Shown here: one piece after another, positions 3,494-32,686 of the stretch
Layout: the number at the start of each line of letters is the position of its first letter
Position numbering within the stretch: position 1 is the stretch's first letter
DNA from: Flavipsychrobacter sp.
Lineage (GTDB): Bacteria; Bacteroidota; Bacteroidia; Chitinophagales; Chitinophagaceae
Direction of reading: 5' to 3'
DNA: 64,000 nt
Assembly (NCBI GenBank): GCA_021155965.1
Contig: JAJNBJ010000018.1
Span: forward strand, 1 to 64,000
Position numbers and translations under genes: made by a program
Notes under the pieces: model-generated
Databases searched by the model: none
What the model was told of the DNA's origin: nothing
The model's input: the letters and a program-made list of their open reading frames with translations, nothing else

Positions 3494-5398
3494 CTAATAA
3501 TTTTTAAGCCTCATCAGCTCTATGGTAAAATCAGGCTTAAAACCATCCGTCATAGGGTGGAAACAGATAGCTTTTATGTTCCGGCAGCCCTTTATATCTC
3601 CTGCAAAAAAGTACATCATCTCTTCTTGTGTAAGGATGCCCTTGTTTGCCAGCGCGGGGTCTTTTAAGGAAGGTATTGATGCACGGTAATCGCTGATACC
3701 GCCATCCTCGTACCTGAAGGCAACATTCAGATTAGGTGGCTGGTAGAACATCCTCCGGAGCTTGCCTTGAAACGTGTATTCAAAATGGGCGGTAATGTAT
3801 ATGGCTTCGTCCGGCGCATAATTGAGGTGTAGGGTATCTCCCAGCTTCAGCGTTTGGGTGGCTATCTTTTCAAACTGCGGCTGCACCTGGCTGTCGCCCC
3901 TGGGTTGCAGCAGCAGGTAAGTATCGAAGTAACCATCCTTCAGCGCGCCGCTCCAATTGTTGACCCTTGCATAATCGATATAGCGGTAATTGAGCCGCAA
4001 CGCTGTTTTGCTCCTCGATTCTTCCCAGAAGAAATACTTATAGTCTATAGGGAAATTCTGGATCATCACCACCTCAGGCCGGCCAGGTTTAGTGAAAAAA
4101 TCTGCGTTCAATGAATCAAACACACCTGCATAGCCGCCGGTAACAGGCATTGGGCGGGGATGGTAATTAAGATCGTGGTAATGCAGCAATTCAACTTCCC
4201 ATGGTATAATGTCTATGGTCTTTTTATCAATGTATTCCAGCTTATCCTTATCCAGCAAACGTATCGGGTCCATCGCCTTCTCGCGCTTTTCAAAAATCCC
4301 TTTCACATACTCCAGCGGCGAATAATAGGCGAGGTAGTAATTAGCTTTTAGTTTGGGAAGAAGTGTATCATCGGTTATATCAGGCGACATGAGGTTATAG
4401 GATGAAACTAGGACAAAAACCACAACGACAACGCGTGGCAAAACGTGTTTTTGCAAACCACACAACACAACTATCGTCAGCGCCCAAAAAGGCATTGTAG
4501 CAAAGTACTCGCCATAATGATAGAAATCGGCACGGGTAAATGCATTCCTGTATAGCACAAGAGTTGTTGCCCCTATACAGCCCAGAAACAGCAATTTGTT
4601 GCGATCGAATGTTTTTTGCCTCCAGCTCCGGTATAAATAATAGCAAAGAACACCGACAAGGACCAGCAGCACAGACAACCCCGAAAGATAAATGAACTCC
4701 TTTCGCTTAATTGGCCAGTACCCCGCCTCATCATATTGCGCTGCCATTGTTAAGCTATACCTGAGGTAGCCAGCGATATCTATATGTGTGGTGAAACAAA
4801 TAGCTGCAAACAACCCACCGGACACCAAAAGCAGGAACAGCAGCCTGCGATAACTTGTAATGGCAAGCATGACCACAAAAACCGAAAGCGCAGCAATGAC
4901 AAGGACTCCATAATTGATCTTGATAAAGAACAACAAGACACCTGCCACAGCAAAGTACCCTAACTCGAAATAGCTCCTGAAATTATTCAGAAAGTTAAGT
5001 GCAGCATAAATGATAAAGATCACAAACAAACACTGCGAGAAAGCGGTAGTGCGGAAAATAAGCATTGCTACCAAAGCCAGCCAGAACCAGCCTTTGTGCC
5101 GCATTACATAGTTATAGATAAAGTGAAAACAGCCGGCAGCAAAAAACAGGTCAGCGACCAGGAAAAGGAAATTACTGGTGTATAGATTGCAACGTGTGCT
5201 GATTAATCCCAATGGCCCGTAAGTGAAAACAAAATCCCTGCCGAAAACGAGATGATCCCTTATTGCCAGGTTCAGGGAAGTCATCCAGCCGCCGTCGTAT
5301 GAATAGGGAAGCGCACGGCTGAAGTGCAGCGGCAGGCTATAAACAGCAATAATAAAGGAAAGTATTTTTAATTTATGTTGCTCCCAGAAACGCGGCAT
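3494..5398 (-). CDS. Polytopic membrane protein, GT-C-like, unknown function
   Basis: A 634-residue protein with an N-terminal hydrophobic half (about ten predicted membrane spans between residues 10 and 350) and a soluble C-terminal part of about 280 residues. The layout, with an early loop containing SYDGGWMTSLN and a periplasmic C-terminal domain, resembles GT-C glycosyltransferases and related Bacteroidota envelope proteins. No diagnostic motif fixes a function. Similarly built proteins occur at 41582-43909 and 46866-48443. It is transcribed alone and is followed by the beta-propeller gene on the same strand after 172 bp. Confidence 0.65.
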   Translation of the reverse strand: MPRFWEQHKLKILSFIIAVYSLPLHFSRALPYSYDGGWMTSLNLAIRDHLVFGRDFVFTYGPLGLISTRCNLYTSNFLFLVADLFFAAGCFHFIYNYVMRHKGWFWLALVAMLIFRTTAFSQCLFVIFIIYAALNFLNNFRSYFELGYFAVAGVLLFFIKINYGVLVIAALSVFVVMLAITSYRRLLFLLLVSGGLFAAICFTTHIDIAGYLRYSLTMAAQYDEAGYWPIKRKEFIYLSGLSVLLVLVGVLCYYLYRSWRQKTFDRNKLLFLGCIGATTLVLYRNAFTRADFYHYGEYFATMPFWALTIVVLCGLQKHVLPRVVVVVFVLVSSYNLMSPDITDDTLLPKLKANYYLAYYSPLEYVKGIFEKREKAMDPIRLLDKDKLEYIDKKTIDIIPWEVELLHYHDLNYHPRPMPVTGGYAGVFDSLNADFFTKPGRPEVVMIQNFPIDYKYFFWEESRSKTALRLNYRYIDYARVNNWSGALKDGYFDTYLLLQPRGDSQVQPQFEKIATQTLKLGDTLHLNYAPDEAIYITAHFEYTFQGKLRRMFYQPPNLNVAFRYEDGGISDYRASIPSLKDPALANKGILTQEEMMYFFAGDIKGCRNIKAICFHPMTDGFKPDFTIELMRLKNY

Positions 5399-6929: not shown

Positions 6930-9200
6930 TTACACAGCGGCGGCTACATCCCTGCGGATAACATTTAATGCGCCACCGGCTTTGAACCATTCTATCTGCT
7001 GATCGTTGAAGGTATGGTTCACGATTATTTCTTCGCTGATGCCGTTTGCGTGGTTTAATACGACTGTCAATGGCACGCCGGGAGCGAATGTTGTTAGGCC
7101 GTTGATATCAATGTTATCGTCTTCCTGTATCTTGTCGTAGTCTGCTTTGTCGGCGAAGGTGATGGCGAGCATACCTTGCTTTTTCAGGTTGGTCTCGTGG
7201 ATACGGGCGAAGCTCTTCACCAATATCACGTTCACACCCAGGTGGCGTGGCTCCATTGCTGCGTGCTCGCGGCTGCTGCCTTCGCCATAGTTCTCATCGC
7301 CTACTACTATGCTGCCAACGCCATGCTTTTTGTAGTCGCGCTGAACTTTCGGCACTTCGTCATAAGCACCGGTGAACTGGTTCTTCACTTTGTTCACTTC
7401 CATGTTGAAAGCATTGATAGCGCCTATCAGCATGTTGTTAGAGATATTATCCAGGTGGCCGCGGTATTTAAGCCATGGGCCTGCCATTGATATATGATCT
7501 GTAGTACACTTGCCGAAAGCTTTTATCAGCAATTTCAAACCTTTCATATCCATGCCATTCCATGGAGCGAACGGTTCCAGCAATTGCAGACGGTCGCTTT
7601 CAGGGTTTACTATCACCTGAACTTTAGAACCATCAACAGCAGGAGCTATGTAGCCGGGGTCTTTTACATCGAACCCTTTTGGAGGCATTTCATAACCTTC
7701 CGGTTCATCCAGCATCACTTCTTCACCTTTCTCGTTCACCAGTTTGTCTGTAAGCGGATTGAACGACAGTTTGCCTGCAATTGCAAAAGCAGTAACTATT
7801 TCAGGAGAAGCCACGAATGCGTGCGTAGATGACAAGCCATCGTTACGTTTTGCAAAGTTGCGGTTGAAAGAAGTAACGATCGTATTTTTCTTAGCCGGGT
7901 CGTTCACGTGGCGCGCCCACTGGCCAATACATGGTCCACAGGCATTAGCCAGCACCACACCACCCATCTGGGCGAAGGTCTTCAGCATGCCATCGCGCTC
8001 AATGGTATAACGCACCATCTCAGAGCCCGGAGTAATGGTAAACTCGCTCTTAGATTTCAGGCCTTTTGCCATTGCATCTTTAGCGATGAATGCAGAACGG
8101 GAAATATCCTCGTATGAAGAGTTGGTGCAAGAACCTATCAACGCAACCTCCACATCATCTGGCCAGCCGTGCTCTTTCACTGCCTCAGCCATTTTGCTGA
8201 TTGGTGTTGCAAGATCGGGAGTGAACGGGCCATTTACATGTGGTTCAAGATCAGTGAGATTTATTTCTATTAGCTGATCATAGAAAGTATCCGGGTTATC
8301 GTACACTTCCTGGTCAGCGCGGAGGTGCTCTTTCACGCTGTCGGCAAGTTGAGCTATATCAGCACGGTTGGTACCTTTCAGGTAGTCGGCCATTTTGCTA
8401 TCGTACGGGAATACGGAGCAGGTTGCACCTATCTCAGCGCCCATATTACAGATAGTACCTTTACCTGTGCAGCTCAGACTATCTGCACCTTCGCCAAAGT
8501 ATTCAACAATAGCGCCGGTACCACCTTTCACGGTCAGGATACCTGCCACTTTCAATATCACGTCTTTTGCCGATGCCCAGCCATTCAGTTTGCCGGTAAG
8601 CTTCACACCTATGATCTTTGGCATTTTCAGCTCCCATGGCAGGCCTGCCATTACATCCACAGCATCTGCACCACCAACTCCTATCGCTGCCATACCCAGT
8701 CCACCTGCGTTAGGTGTGTGGCTGTCGGTACCGATCATCATACCGCCGGGGAATGCATAGTTTTCCAGCACTACCTGGTGAATGATACCCGCACCTGCTG
8801 CCCAGAAACCAATGCCGTATTTATTGGAGATAGAAGCAAGGAAATCGTACACTTCTTTATTCACATCGAGCGCGGTAGCAAGGTCTTGCGCAGCGCCTGT
8901 TTTTGCCTGAATGAGGTGGTCGCAATGCACAGTGCTGGGCACTGCAACTTTATCGCGGCCGCAAGTGCTGAACTGCAACAGCGCCATTTGCGCCGTAGCA
9001 TCCTGCATAGCCACACGGTCGGGAGAGAAATTCACATAATCTTTCCCGCGGCTATATGCTGATGTAGGAGCATCGTAACTGTGGGAATACAATATTTTTT
9101 CCGCCTGTGTAAGAGGACGGCCCAACAATTTGCGCGCTGCTTCTACTTTACCCGGTAATTGGTCATAAACTTTCTGGATGAGGTCGATATCAAATGCCAT
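6930..9200 (-). CDS. acnA: Aconitate hydratase
   Basis: A 756-residue TCA-cycle enzyme that isomerises citrate to isocitrate through a [4Fe-4S] cluster. The three cluster cysteines are visible at C358 (GSCTNSS) and at C421 and C424 ([10 protein letters not shown]). The swivel domain contains [15 protein letters not shown] near the C terminus. Length and sequence style match the mitochondrial-type aconitases common in Bacteroidota rather than AcnB. It is monocistronic: a terminator follows at 6875-6911, and a -7 box plus a phased motif array lie upstream. The symbol is given by family; the mitochondrial-type enzyme is sometimes simply called acn. Confidence 0.97.
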
Positions 9201-26518: not shown

Positions 26519-26722
26519 ATGGTACGAACAGTGATAACCCCGGATAAAGGCAATATCTCTATTGAATTGCCTCAGAATTATATCGGCAAGCAGGTGGAAA
26601 TTATCGCTTTTACTATTGAGGAAGCCACAAAAGATACGCCGCTTACGCATTATGCTTCAGAGCAATCGTTAGCTAAAGACTGGCTGGCCAAAGAAGAAGA
26701 CGACGCATGGAAAAATTTATAA
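26519..26722 (+). CDS. Type II antitoxin (MazE/DUF2281-like)
   Basis: A 67-residue protein. The N terminus has a short strand-rich DNA-binding segment of AbrB/MazE character (ITPDKGNISIELPQNYIGKQVEI), and the acidic C-terminal tail (AKEEDDAWKNL) is expected to wrap the toxin. It overlaps the toxin gene by 16 bp in a different frame, which is typical of toxin-antitoxin pairs. Likely autoregulates. Confidence 0.8.
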   Translation: MVRTVITPDKGNISIELPQNYIGKQVEIIAFTIEEATKDTPLTHYASEQSLAKDWLAKEEDDAWKNL

Positions 26723-27039
26723 AAGGCGATGTAATAGTTATTCCATTCCCGTTTTCTGACCTTTCAGGTTCAAAACGCCGACCTGCATTAGTACTTTCTG
26801 ATTTACCCGGTGAGGACATTATACTTTGCCAAATAACGAGCCAACACAAGGATGATAATGCAGTAACTCTGGATAAAACAGATTTTGAATCAGGTTCGCT
26901 CCCGGCATTATCGTACATCAGGCCAACAAGGATTTTCACTGCCGACAAGAGTATCATTATCCGTAAGGCGGGACACATAAAAGCAACTGTTCACAATGTA
27001 GTTGTGAACAAAATTATTTCTTTGCTTACCACCAACTAA
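26707..27039 (+). CDS. PemK/MazF-type toxin
   Basis: A 110-residue endoribonuclease toxin. The opening GDVIVIPFPFSDLSGSKRRPALVLS is the PemK/MazF beta-barrel signature with the catalytic Arg, and the later CQITSQ and KAGHIKATVHNVV segments match the family. It is expected to cleave mRNA when the antitoxin is degraded. It is coupled to the antitoxin and followed by a hairpin terminator. Stability function or phage defence cannot be separated by sequence. Confidence 0.88.
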   Translation: MEKFIKGDVIVIPFPFSDLSGSKRRPALVLSDLPGEDIILCQITSQHKDDNAVTLDKTDFESGSLPALSYIRPTRIFTADKSIIIRKAGHIKATVHNVVVNKIISLLTTN

Positions 27040-29066: not shown

Positions 29067-29097
29067 CAAAGGTAAGGGTTGTGTACTATAATACAAA
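29067..29097 (-). promoter_or_regulatory. Promoter of atpD
   Basis: On the minus strand TTTG (29094-29097) and TACCTTTG (29067-29074) are separated by 19 bp, matching the Bacteroidota TTTG/TAnnTTTG consensus. Predicted start is about 29060-29063. A palindrome TTTGCGCAAA (29061-29070) overlaps the -7 box and the predicted start. Confidence 0.7.
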
Positions 29098-29168
29098 AGA
29101 GAAAAAAGGAAATTATCCAGTTATGAACATCATACCTATAATACTGTGTGGATAAGTTATTTTCCTCA

Positions 29169-29198
29169 TTTATAAACATATTAAGTATCGTATCTTTG
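29169..29198 (+). promoter_or_regulatory. Candidate promoter of the RT-associated RNA
   Basis: TATCTTTG at 29191-29198 is a perfect TAnnTTTG -7 box, with TTTA in the place of the -33 TTTG 18 bp upstream. The predicted start falls at about 29202-29206, practically where the first 99-bp repeat begins. Confidence 0.5.
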
Positions 29199-29205
29199 AA
29201 TTCTG

Positions 29206-29304
29206 CCAGACAGAGGTGCTATGCGCCTCAAGATGGCTAAAGCCTTTGAGCGACTGAAGCATCTAAAGATATTTGTTATTGTATCTATTTGTTTCATGAA
29301 CTCT
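29206..29304 (+). repeat. 99-bp direct repeat, copy 1
   Basis: Identical over 99 bp to 29516-29614. The transcript would fold into GAGGTGC / GCGCCTC (7 bp including one G-U pair, loop TAT). An alternative or following hairpin is CTCAAG / TTTGAG enclosing GGCT / AGCC, and a weaker AGATAT / GTATCT hairpin lies near the 3' end. Confidence 0.95.
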
Positions 29305-29515
29305 CACCACGGTTATTTGCAGGTTCAGGACTTCCATTTCAGTGGATGTGGGTCTTTTAAAAGCAGGGGAGCGGCGAGCAGTAACTAATTCAAAAAAAGT
29401 TGCATAAGTCGAAAAAAGTAGTAAATTTGACTAAACACCTTAATGGAATGAAGACTATTGCTAAAAAACAACACGAAGAAGCGCAAAACCGCAAAATTTA
29501 GCGCCTGGCTTATCT

Positions 29516-29614
29516 CCAGACAGAGGTGCTATGCGCCTCAAGATGGCTAAAGCCTTTGAGCGACTGAAGCATCTAAAGATATTTGTTATTGTATCTATTT
29601 GTTTCATGAACTCT
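29516..29614 (+). repeat. 99-bp direct repeat, copy 2
   Basis: Exact copy of 29206-29304, offset by 310 bp. The flanks are unrelated apart from a few bases before the repeat. Confidence 0.95.
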
Positions 29615-29685
29615 TTCTCTGCTTTAAGGGTAAAACCTGCAAAAGTTGTTGCAGAACAGCTAGGAACCTGAAACTCAACTAATCC

Positions 29686-31065
29686 ATGAACCAAGAATCT
29701 TCGCTGCTATCGGAAATAGCATCTATAGAGTGTTTAGGTAAAGCCTGGAAAGCTCTAAACAAATCAAATTTATCTTCTCGCGGCCTTTCAAATATTTCGA
29801 TAAAAGAATTTGAATATAGCTTAGATGCAAACCTGATTTCAATTTCCCAATCTCTCCTTGCAGGAAAATATCGTTTTTCTAATGTTAGAGCAGTGACAAT
29901 TCCCAAAAGTAATGGCAATGGTTTGCGACCATTACGAGTCGGTGAGGTAAAAGATAGAATTGTACAAAAAGCTCTGTCTATGAAAATAGATTCATTATTA
30001 ACTGAAAAATTTAATCTAAATAATGAATGTAGTTTTGCATACAGAAGAAAGAAAAATGTTAGAAATGCAATTGACAAAATGGTTGAGTATTATAATCAAG
30101 GGCACACAATAATTTTAGAAGCTGACATACAAAAGTTTTTTGATACAGTTAATAAAAGCGAACTATTAAAACAAATTCAACAATCCTTACCAGATTCCAG
30201 CATAAATGAATTATTAGCAACAGCAGTAAAACAGGAGATTGGTAACGCTAATGATATCCCTAAAGAAATATTTGAAGAGTATTTTTCAAATAGCGAGAAT
30301 GGCATTCCTCAGGGAAATGCTCTTTCTCCTCTTTTGGCTAATATTTATTTAGCAAGCTTTGATGCCCGCATTATCGCAGATGGCATTAAGATGATAAGAT
30401 ATGCTGACGACTTTATTATTATGTGCAAAAATCAAGCAGATGCGGAATCAGCTTTGGCAATTGCAAAAGAAGAATTGGAAAATAAACTTCATCTAACCCT
30501 ACACCCATTAGGAGATGCGAAGGACGAAAAGGCGAAAACTCGAATCGTGAATCCTAAAATGCATAAGTTTTCATTTTTGTCAATTCGTTTTGATGGCAAA
30601 AGATGTTGGGTAAAAGAGAAAAAAATAGAATCCATTCTTGAAAAAATAAAACAGCTTACTGATGTTCAAAAAATAAGAACACAGCTAACAACTGTCGGCC
30701 TTCTTCCATTAATGAGCTCTTTAAAAAATACAATTGAAGGTTGGATTGCGGCGTATCACTTTGTTGATTTAGATACCGCATTAATTGAAATTGACAAATC
30801 AATCAACCGGAATTTGTATTTAGCGTTTTTAGAATTAGACTTTAAACTTGAGAAAAAATCATTAGAAAAGATTTCTTACAAAGGGAAGAGCAATGAAATA
30901 TTTGCATTAAACAAGCAGCAAAGAATCAATACAGGCATTCCATACTGCCACAAAGTTTGGGAGAGAATGAATAAACAAAATGAGATTAAGAAATTATATC
31001 TTGACGAAAAACCATTACTCAATAAACCAACCAATAAAGCCACAAAATGGAAAGAAGTATCATAA
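29686..31065 (+). CDS. Reverse transcriptase, group II-like, no endonuclease domain
   Basis: A 459-residue RNA-directed DNA polymerase. Visible motifs are RT1 (VTIPKSNGNGLRPL, about 70-83), RT3 with the first catalytic Asp in EADIQKFFD (D147), RT4 GIPQGNALSPLLANIYL (206-222), RT5 RYADD (238-242) and an RT7-like FSFLSIRFDG (about 295-304). A thumb/X-like helical segment (TIEGWIAAYHFVD, about 349-361) follows. There is no HNH domain, no Cas1 fusion and no retron NAXXH/VTG signature, and the motif 4 sequence is not the DGR type. The gene is visibly AT-richer than its neighbours, indicating transfer. A repeat-bounded RNA region precedes it. Relatedness to the unknown-group/defence RTs is possible but unproven. 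Confidence 0.9.
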   Translation: MNQESSLLSEIASIECLGKAWKALNKSNLSSRGLSNISIKEFEYSLDANLISISQSLLAGKYRFSNVRAVTIPKSNGNGLRPLRVGEVKDRIVQKALSMKIDSLLTEKFNLNNECSFAYRRKKNVRNAIDKMVEYYNQGHTIILEADIQKFFDTVNKSELLKQIQQSLPDSSINELLATAVKQEIGNANDIPKEIFEEYFSNSENGIPQGNALSPLLANIYLASFDARIIADGIKMIRYADDFIIMCKNQADAESALAIAKEELENKLHLTLHPLGDAKDEKAKTRIVNPKMHKFSFLSIRFDGKRCWVKEKKIESILEKIKQLTDVQKIRTQLTTVGLLPLMSSLKNTIEGWIAAYHFVDLDTALIEIDKSINRNLYLAFLELDFKLEKKSLEKISYKGKSNEIFALNKQQRINTGIPYCHKVWERMNKQNEIKKLYLDEKPLLNKPTNKATKWKEVS

Positions 31066-31204
31066 ATGAAGGTAGCATCGTGTCCCTCCTGTTGTTCCGG
31101 ATTAGGCAATATGCAAAATATTGAAAGTAATGAATAACTTTCAACTCATGCCATTTGTAAAAGCCGCGTATGAATACTGATATTTTAAAATTCGTTCCGG
31201 ATTC

Positions 31205-31339
31205 TGGCTGGGTTGTAGAAAATCAGATTTAGTCTGATTTGCTTTGATGAAAGCAATGGTGAGTCTTTAAAGGCATCCCGTACAGAATAGTTTATAAGTT
31301 ATAAAGTACAACCCCTGATGGCATTTAAATCCATATTTT
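31205..31339 (+). ncRNA. Candidate IS110 bridge RNA segment
   Basis: The left-end non-coding segment folds into consecutive hairpins: AAATCAGA / TCTGATTT (31220-31240), TTGCTTT / AAAGCAA (31239-31256), and TTTATAA / TTATAAA closed by an outer GTAC pair (31280-31309). IS110-group elements encode a bridge RNA in this position that pairs with donor and target DNA. The guide loops were not assigned. Confidence 0.5.
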
Positions 31340-32686
31340 ATGTCACAGAAAAAAGTAAATCTTCCCGTTGTCAATCCTCATGCGGCAGGTATTGACATTG
31401 GTTCACGAGTACATTTCGTGGCTGTCGGGCAAAATTCCGAAGACGTTAAGAGTTTCGGTTGCTATACCAATGATTTGGTCAGACTGTCGCGATGGCTAAA
31501 ATCAGAAGGTGTCACATCTGTTGCGATGGAAAGCACTGGCAGCTATTGGAAAGGCGTCTTTCAGCAACTACAGCATGATGGCTTTGAAGTTATCCTGGTT
31601 AATGGCAAGCATACCCATAATGTAAAAGGCAAGAAAACGGATGTGCTCGATTGCCAATGGATACAAAGACTACACAGCCTGGGCTTGCTTAGCGGCAGTT
31701 TTTTACCTGATGAATTTACCACTGAGTTAAGACAGTATGCTAGAAACAGGGAACAGCTCATTGAACAAGCCGGCGCTTATGCCACGAAAATGAAACAAGC
31801 TTTGAGGCTCATGAATATCCGCCTCGATGTTGCAATAAGGGACATTACAGGAGAATCCGGCAGAGCGATTGTCAGCGCGATTCTTCAAGGCCAGAGAGAT
31901 CCCGCAGCCTTAGCATCGCTGGCAAACTTCAGGGTTAAAAAGAGTAAACAAGAGATTGCATCTTCTTTGGAAGGAAATTGGAGAGAAGAATATCTGTTTG
32001 AACTCAGGTTAAGCCAGGAGCTTTTCGATATTTTTCAGCAGAAAATTGCAGAATGCGACAAACAAATAGACCAATTGTTAAAGAAACATTTGCAAGAAAA
32101 AGCAGCTGCATCAGCAAACACCAGTGTAGCTATTGTAAAAAAGAAGATCAACAAAAATGCTCCAAAGCTACCGTTACAACAATTAAGCATACAATTGACT
32201 GGAGGGATCAATCTGTATGAAGTAGAGGGTGTTTCTGATGCTACAGTTTTAGCAATATTATCAGAAACCGGATTTGATTTAAGCAAATTTCCAACCGCAA
32301 AACACTTTTCAAGTTGGATGGCTTTATCACCCAACAATAAAATATCCGGCGGCAAAATCCTTAGTAGCCACGTAGCTCATCACAATAATAAGCTGGCGCA
32401 AGCCCTGCGTAGAGCCGCAAATGCTATTGGCAATATGAAGACAGGTAAACTCAACCAGTTCTTTAAGCGAATCGCATTTAAATATGGGAGGATGGCGGCG
32501 ATCACAGCTACAGCAAGAAAATTATCCGTAATAATCTGGAATATGCTTACAAAAAAAGAGCCTTACCGCTACGAAGAAACAACGATTTATGTCGCAAAAT
32601 TACGCAGGCTGCAGTTAAAAAGTATTCAACGGAAAATTCGAGCGCTCAACATTCAACAAAATGAACTGAATTTTGTAAACGTATGA
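31340..32686 (+). CDS. IS110-family transposase
   Basis: A 448-residue bridge-RNA-guided recombinase. The N-terminal RuvC-like DEDD domain shows D19 (AGIDIG), E64 (AMESTG), D101 and D104 (KTDVLDCQW). The C-terminal Tnp domain contains LSPNNKISGGK with the candidate nucleophilic serine S336. A coiled-coil linker rich in Gln/Lys connects them (about 225-260). The reading frame is intact, so the element may be active. It is inserted between the RT gene and a small membrane protein gene. Confidence 0.93.
   Translation: MSQKKVNLPVVNPHAAGIDIGSRVHFVAVGQNSEDVKSFGCYTNDLVRLSRWLKSEGVTSVAMESTGSYWKGVFQQLQHDGFEVILVNGKHTHNVKGKKTDVLDCQWIQRLHSLGLLSGSFLPDEFTTELRQYARNREQLIEQAGAYATKMKQALRLMNIRLDVAIRDITGESGRAIVSAILQGQRDPAALASLANFRVKKSKQEIASSLEGNWREEYLFELRLSQELFDIFQQKIAECDKQIDQLLKKHLQEKAAASANTSVAIVKKKINKNAPKLPLQQLSIQLTGGINLYEVEGVSDATVLAILSETGFDLSKFPTAKHFSSWMALSPNNKISGGKILSSHVAHHNNKLAQALRRAANAIGNMKTGKLNQFFKRIAFKYGRMAAITATARKLSVIIWNMLTKKEPYRYEETTIYVAKLRRLQLKSIQRKIRALNIQQNELNFVNV

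Follow-up and report, generated by a model that had tools for sequence, protein, structure and literature searches.

A reverse transcriptase gene preceded by twin direct repeats

Why should a free-standing reverse transcriptase (RT) gene be preceded by two identical copies of a 99-nt sequence, and could these copies take part in what the enzyme does? We addressed this question in the window, that is the whole 64-kb stretch of DNA that was analysed, and in related loci of other genomes. The elements concerned are the following.

29206..29304, + strand: R1, first direct repeat, putative structured RNA element, 99 nt, at the 5' end of the transcript inferred from the promoter-like site P1
29516..29614, + strand: R2, second direct repeat, 99 nt, ending 72 nt ahead of the RT start codon
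29686..31065, + strand: RT gene, encoding a free-standing group-II-like RT of 459 amino acids with RT palm, thumb and C-terminal extension

R1 and R2 of the window are 100% identical, with a start-to-start distance of 310 and 211 nt intervening. The RT has the catalytic residue D147, GIPQG from residue 206 (in the sequence GIPQGNALSP), YADD from residue 239 and a Pfam RVT_1 match of 6.5e-27. The first-pass annotation had described an intact 459-residue RT with these motifs, and two identical 99-bp direct repeats around a 211-bp spacer, and both descriptions are exact. The R1/R2 pair is the sole exact direct repeat of at least 50 nt with copies 120-700 bp apart in the 64-kb window, and at E <= 1 a 496-base query that contains both repeats has a single match in the 4.25-Mb genome. 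In a control set of 91 loci, most of them RT loci (607,292 bases, partly overlapping, and including the clade fragments L003 and L010, which lack upstream sequence), a comparable repeat occurs in L034 and L081 alone, downstream of their RT gene, and this comparison rules out the idea that such repeats are common noise. L034 and L081 are two viral contigs that carry, at the same coordinates, a 62-nt exact direct repeat at 7265 with copies 558 bp apart.

A scan of genome contigs gave four relatives of the RT (L002, L003, L004 and L005), and L007, L021/L010 and L090 were added through whole-genome searches. Five relatives have upstream sequence, four from Bacteroidota and one from a Chloroflexota metagenome-assembled genome (MAG), with RTs 36-55% identical. 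The host of the window itself probably belongs to Bacteroidota, judging by relatives of its class and family, by secretion-tail domains and by the type of promoter. The loci are listed below with RT identity, repeat length and spacing.

Window: repeat 99 bp, spacing 310
L002: Mucilaginibacter MAG, RT 45%, repeat 100 bp, spacing 449
L004: Chloroflexi MAG, RT 41%, repeat 117 bp, spacing 353
L007: genome G211, RT 36-37%, repeat 92 bp, spacing 381
L021 (with L010): genome G602, RT 54-55%, repeat about 111 bp, spacing 341, second copy broken by a run of N
L090: genome G1427, RT 47%, repeat 109 bp, spacing 348
L003: RT 53%, partial, taken as the same genome as L021 (G602)
L005: CRISPR-type RT in a larger protein, 34%

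The repeat pair is present in six of the six clade loci that have upstream sequence (window, L002, L004, L007, L021 and L090). The first-pass annotation had also asked about homologues lacking the upstream RNA; all five relatives with upstream sequence carry the pair. In the five complete loci R1 and R2 are 98-100% identical inside the repeat, compared with 15-33% in the 40-nt flanks, and both pieces of R2 in L021 are exact matches to R1. The repeats diverge strongly from locus to locus. The five complete loci together hold only five R1-R2 mismatches (A/G, G/C, T/C, C/A and C/A), and R2 stops about 30-85 nt short of the RT start in the loci measured. L002 also has a third, diverged copy, R3 (4747-4802), between the leader and R2 and 111 bp from R2, which is not homogenised with R1 and R2 and, as read by eye, is followed by neither of the complementary segments a and a' described below. 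An assembly artefact is ruled out, because six genomes hold differing repeats and flanks in one and the same layout. The run of N within R2 of L021 (1282-1381) is a scaffold gap, which suggests that short-read assemblies may break at the repeats rather than invent them, and that the clade is possibly under-counted. The twin-repeat architecture is a well-supported hallmark of an unnamed RT clade.

A lineage of group-II-like reverse transcriptases

The six clade RTs form one clade (support 99/98) in a tree of 34 RTs, a small reference set that holds no named DRT or retron and which G602 enters through the C-terminal half encoded by L003. The nearest outgroup is the RT of L087, which adjoins the clade at 94/91 and whose contig holds about 250 bp upstream of the RT; group II RTs and the CRISPR RT are separate. 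The predicted structure of the window RT (mean pLDDT 83) has as its nearest folds the G2L4 and GsI-IIC RTs, the best match being 9d4s (TM 0.70 to the query, 26% identity). Beyond the thumb it has a C-terminal extension, comprising the residues past about 384, of which the final 26 are predicted to be disordered; Q412, R413 and G417, in this extension, are invariant across the six aligned clade RTs.

Profile searches gave matches that are either sub-threshold or non-specific. The window RT scores 235.4 bits with TIGR04416 (group II maturase), below the cut-off of 300, and 80 bits with the NCBI Drt2 model, whose cut-off is 390. The top PADLOC matches are RT, Cas1_IIIb and UG17, but the UG17 profile gives 148 bits for the window RT versus 153-177 for eight of ten control RTs (126 and 146 for the other two), the higher-scoring controls including group II and CRISPR RTs; since eight of ten control RTs outscore it, these best matches are unable to classify the window RT. 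At Rfam gathering thresholds no catalytic intron RNA was found in the window, L002, L004, L007, L021 or L091, while as positive controls all eight tested same-family group II-like loci (of 12), and also L024 and L008, contained intron RNA. This result, with its controls, rules out a group II intron remnant. The first-pass annotation had named, as an alternative to its own proposal, grouping with ordinary group II intron proteins beside a detectable ribozyme; the RT stands apart from them in the tree and the clade loci searched are Rfam-negative. The best reading is that the clade is an unnamed group-II-like RT lineage, absent by name from the profile sets used.

This RT clade is rare. At the limits of each search, and counting the own or centre genome, RT-positive genomes numbered 4 among the 395 of the phylum (the own genome, G211 and two that are group II-like), 12 among the 394 of the family (the own genome, G602 and ten whose matches are only 28-33% identical) and 2 among the 201 of the phylum to which L004 belongs (its own and that of the outgroup L087); further genome sets gave 1/128, 1/251, 2/325 (own and G1427) and 1/87, and the search centred on the genome of L005 covered 3 genomes. 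Three single-protein RT queries and the DNA pattern of R revealed no close relative in viral contigs, in which an alignment query retrieved 58 distant RTs (33% identity at best). On plasmids the window RT matched 59 records at E <= 1e-30, the best 20 of the 59 being 27-30% identical and the named proteins among these 20 being group II RTs; the L090 and L004 RTs had no plasmid match at 1e-45, and the upstream region had no plasmid DNA match. Phages gave 27 records at E <= 1e-10, with 34% identity the best among the matches listed. In the listed titles and abstract starts of the open-licence PMC literature we found no description of twin repeats beside an RT, which is not proof of absence.

Structure, promoter-like sites and open frames of the upstream region

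R is predicted from its sequence to be a structured RNA element with a covarying 56-nt hairpin, present in both copies.

29248..29303, + strand: 56-nt hairpin in R1, with a GAG...CUC base and covariation in the four alignable loci
29558..29613, + strand: 56-nt hairpin in R2

Folding z-scores of R are negative in all six loci (window -2.26, L021 -1.44, L002 -1.64, L004 -3.72, L090 -1.45, L007 -2.36), those of L021, L002 and L090 being individually not significant; R3 of L002 has a z-score of +0.47. The consensus hairpin of the four alignable loci has an energy of -4.5 versus -0.23 (sd 0.64) for column shuffles, a value attained by 2 of 300. When nine hits were aligned with the covariance model, 86.5% of cells were paired, versus 39-54% in slid versions, and 11 of 24 pairs showed double-sided changes, counts that lean toward the model because the nine rows represent four loci only and are aligned to the model itself. 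In a search of 28 sources, all 11 matches of the R model at E <= 1 fell inside clade loci, namely the same four from which the model had been built. This covariance search left L004 and L007 unmatched at E <= 1, R being too diverged there. No consensus structure was obtained for the spacer S between the repeats, the folding z-scores of which are 0.18 in the window, 0.07 in L002, -2.0 in L090 and -3.2 in L004.

Two promoter-like sites accompany the repeats.

29191..29198, + strand: P1, Bacteroidota-type -7 element TATCTTTG, ending 7 bases ahead of R1
29400..29429, + strand: P2, promoter-like TTG-19-TAAATTTG in the spacer

P1 was identified by means of TAnnTTTG, which we take to be the Bacteroidota -7 promoter consensus, and its start site would lie close to the first base of R1. 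P1-like elements precede R1 by 7 bases in the window, 11 in L002, 3 in L021, 7 in L090 and 42 in L007, and L004, whose sites are of the sigma-70 type, has TAGACA-16-TATAAT ending 13 bases ahead of R1; in five of the six loci R1 therefore begins 3-13 bases past a -10/-7 element, L007, at 42 nt, being the exception. Between the repeats, TTG-19-TAnnTTT occurs with equal spacing in the window, L002, L007 and L021, and L004 has TTGTCA-18-TATGAT. L090 has a near match that misses the strict pattern (by eye), so that a P2-like site is found between the repeats in six of six loci, the L090 site falling below the strict pattern. A simple sigma-70 scan of the window missed both P1 and P2, with promoters and terminators about as numerous as in shuffles.

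Each repeat is followed by a short segment complementary to the one that follows the other repeat.

29316..29325, + strand: a, TTTGCAGGTT, complement of a' past R2
29634..29643, + strand: a', AACCTGCAAA, complement of a

Within 50 nt after R1 and R2 the complement is 10-11 nt long in the window, L002 and L021 (a length reached in 0 of 500 shuffles each), 8 nt in L090 (p 0.02) and 7 nt in L004 and L007 (p 0.06), compared with 4-6 nt only in the stretches ahead of the repeats. The duplex energy of the whole segments is significant against shuffles (p < 0.05) in L002, L007 and L021 only, and no better than shuffles in the window (p 0.49), L090 (0.20) and L004 (0.07). In longer RNAs the probability of the a:a' stem is 0.96-0.99 in L002 and 0.26-0.43 in the window, and the stem is not predicted in L004, L007 and L090. 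The distance from a to a' is 318-439 nt in the five loci measured.

The first-pass annotation had called the 410-bp stretch upstream of the RT non-coding. Its account of the repeats and spacer holds, but short open frames are present in this stretch.

29318..29407, + strand: S tail, open frame CRFRTSISVDVGLLKAGERRAVTNSKKVA, read by eye, resembling the tails of L002 and L021
29448..29501, + strand: leader mini-ORF MKTIAKKQHEEAQNRKI, translated and compared by eye

By eye, the window mini-ORF is similar to MYVKKQPEEAEVTA of L021 and less so to MKGKKQTNGARA of L002. One frame is open through R in six of six loci; the frame from R1 into the spacer is continuous in the five relatives and shifted at the R1/spacer junction in the window, which leaves S out of frame. 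Compared with shuffles, open frames are in excess past R1 (Fisher p 0.004) and ahead of R2 (p 0.02), but not ahead of R1 (0.52) or past R2 (0.31). The frame-enriched pieces are those that a template jump from R1 to R2 would join, and the effect is modest. Codon-position evidence for translation is weak, and Pfam gave no match for the peptides. A hydrophobic 17-residue stretch is clear in L007 (mean 3.0), L004 (2.3) and L090 (2.0) and weak in the window, L021 and L002 (1.2-1.4). A start in frame with R, as judged by eye, is provided by the leader's own ATG in L004 only; L002 has an ATG within the third copy, L007 and L090 have GTG only, and the window has none. In L004, joining R1 to R2 would yield a single frame equipped with the start codon of the leader itself.

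A possible strand-transfer system and its rivals

The reading that we prefer, tentatively and as something short of probable, is that the locus may be a self-contained retroelement-like system, in which an RT would use its own cis-encoded RNA and make cDNA by R-mediated strand transfer. The first-pass annotation had proposed an RNA-templated system with template jumping and concatemeric cDNA, a proposal with which the anatomy agrees: the position of R1 near the 5' end of a putative transcript, its identical copy further down and the complementary segments past both would suit strand transfer. The transcripts, RT binding, priming, jump, product and function that we infer would be as follows. 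P1 would make an RNA that opens with a folded R1 and runs on into the spacer S, while P2 would make the RT message, with R2 in its leader. The RT would bind the R hairpin and copy the P1 RNA as far as R1, which forms the 5' end of that RNA; as R2 has the same sequence, the nascent cDNA end could move to R2, possibly aided by the complementarity of a and a', and would then enter the P2 leader, a transfer that we liken to the jumping of retroviral strong-stop DNA between R regions. The product would read leader-R-S or consist of tandem R-S-P2-leader units, an order that the chromosome lacks, with P2 and the leader placed ahead of the R-S frame. It could express a small peptide, clearly hydrophobic in some loci, or act as cDNA itself. 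A rather unlikely extension of this scheme is that such retrovirus-like transfer between long identical RNA repeats assembles a cDNA-only gene, to which the leader would supply the N-terminus and the sequence after R1 the C-terminus; if true, the effector would exist solely after reverse transcription. Recent work has shown that RTs of the defence type generate repeats, homopolymers and even new genes out of small RNAs, and this clade would contribute a further mode, one that relies on long RNA elements in duplicate, in a lineage near group II intron RTs. Since leader-R-S would be a diagnostic molecule that is simple to look for, the strand-transfer idea is directly testable.

The identity of about 100 nt exceeds what a template jump needs, which counts against the strand-transfer reading. 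The main rival of this reading, somewhat unlikely in our view, is that R is an RT binding site: R1 would recruit the RT, R2 would let the RT repress its own translation, and the template would be a single retron- or DRT-like RNA. The RTs of group II introns have a binding site of their own at such a position, shortly before the RT start, and LtrA shuts off its own translation via domain IVa of its intron; the covarying structure of R and the short distance from the end of R2 to the RT start (some 30-85 nt in the loci measured) agree with such autoregulation. A common structure would however suffice for binding, and 98-100% identity over 92-117 nt with abrupt ends would be unneeded. This identity is what a passive process would explain, in which an old duplication is kept identical by ordinary recombination and the RT, uninvolved in it, uses another RNA or none. 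Recombination occurs readily between direct repeats of this length (about 100 bp) and spacing (a few hundred bp), so that R-S-R arrays could expand and contract; we nevertheless regard this explanation as unlikely, since the placement of R1 close behind a P1-like site and of a P2-like site between R1 and R2 is found in two phyla, R3 of L002 stayed unhomogenised only 111 bp from R2 and without a or a', and a comparable repeat is found among the 91 controls only in L034/L081, downstream of the RT.

Passive homogenisation and copying by the RT itself come next after the binding-site explanation. In the latter case, as in diversity-generating retroelements (DGRs) or retron recombineering and without mutagenesis, cDNA of R1 would overwrite the chromosomal R2. 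Concerted identity of R1 and R2 within loci, set against their divergence between loci, is what such copying would produce, and a/a' complementarity could place a primer beside R1, but the five mismatches in the five complete loci are not consistently adenine-directed, the RT has QG...SP rather than the DGR motif and no diversified target protein was seen, which makes this process quite improbable. It appears more improbable still that the repeats mark a tandem pair of genes for small membrane peptides of one kind, a toxin and a shorter version of it, next to an orphan RT that has nothing to do with them. The frame open through R in six of six loci and the clear 17-residue hydrophobic stretches of L007, L004 and L090 point in this direction, against which stand the weak hydrophobicity in the window, L021 and L002, the weak codon-position signal, the conservation of R as an RNA structure and its linkage to a single RT clade.

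Comparison with known systems

The first-pass annotation had found no fit with any known DRT, retron or DGR signature, a conclusion that survives the tests made here. The best structural match, G2L4, is likewise free-standing, with intron RNA not detected. G2L4 carries YIDD in place of YADD (PMC4244168), whereas the window RT has YADD at 239, twin upstream repeats and a C-terminal extension past the thumb. Group II intron RTs (GsI-IIC, Marathon) share the RT and thumb fold, and there is the sub-threshold TIGR04416 match, but the window RT is without Rfam intron RNA and in a separate clade. In DRT2 (the Neo system) the promoter and the ORF arise only on cDNA (PMC12039810). The window locus resembles it in having a putative RNA adjoining the RT and, if our proposal is right, a cDNA-only promoter and ORF; it differs in that DRT2 uses ACA motifs where we find repeats of 92-117 nt, and the Drt2 model scores far under its cut-off. 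A DRT2-type endless ORF is rejected, since units of 310, 449, 353 and 341 are not divisible by 3 and those of 381 and 348, which are divisible by 3, have stops in every frame. The R-mediated transfer proposed here would share the A-B-A' logic of repeat-guided re-annealing described for DRT10, the UG17 system (PMC12632851). Membership of DRT10/UG17 is rejected, there being no SLATT gene beside the RT and the UG17 match being non-specific versus controls: SLATT was found neither in 10 further window proteins nor in 10 proteins of L002, L091, L092 and L093.

Retrons have complementary a1/a2 segments, and their RTs carry the motifs NAXXH and VTG. An RNA just upstream of the RT and complementary segments reminiscent of a1/a2 are common to both, but the window locus has direct repeats and the distance from a to a' is 318-439 nt, and by eye neither NAXXH nor VTG is seen in the 459-aa window RT. 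DGRs are characterised by adenine-directed differences between template and variable copies and by an RT motif of their own that replaces QG...SP; a DGR is rejected here, the window RT having QG...SP and the mismatches showing no consistent A-to-N pattern. The retroviral R is a repeat of roughly 100 nt that starts near the 5' end of the transcript and recurs downstream. The pair described here resembles it in length, in the position of R1 near the 5' end of the putative transcript and in the downstream copy R2; there is no RNase H or integrase here and the RT lies outside the repeats, unlike in retroviruses, so that the likeness is an analogy only.

Genomic neighbourhood

The RT locus of the window is flanked on the left by an atpD-like gene on the minus strand (by eye), and in an empty-site comparison 11 atpD loci from the genus (out of 32 other matching genomes) cease to be similar at the nucleotide level at 29075-29113; the proteins to the right of the RT had one match, an NHL-type protein in L105. 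The RT gene is directly followed, at 31066-32686, by an IS110-family transposase gene (NF033542, 219 bits). Its upstream non-coding stretch repeats GTTCCGGATT, where the bridge RNA is expected (by eye). The RT as part of IS110 is unsupported: inspection by eye of the ORFs of L002, L004, L007 and L090 revealed no IS110. The scanned neighbours in the window are mostly housekeeping-type genes, with one IS110 and a PemK/MazF-like toxin gene (26707-27039, PF02452) about 2.6 kb from the RT, and apart from this toxin gene they are not defence genes. No cas domain was found in 11 window neighbours scanned (19.5-37.1 kb) or in 10 proteins near the relatives.

Among the relatives, L002 adjoins an AbiEi/AbiEii pair and, by eye, a resolvase-like gene, the RT of L007 adjoins a type I restriction subunit and a YgjP-like metallopeptidase/protease (L092 1368-5106), and recA lies about 1.4 kb upstream of the RT of L090. 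The neighbours in two loci (L002 and L007) make a role in phage defence plausible. In L005 (1-5803) the RT is part of a 966-aa protein with TPR-like and primase-like parts (by eye) and adjoins a Cas1-like gene and a 37-nt repeat array, and this locus looks like an RT-primase CRISPR adaptation module.
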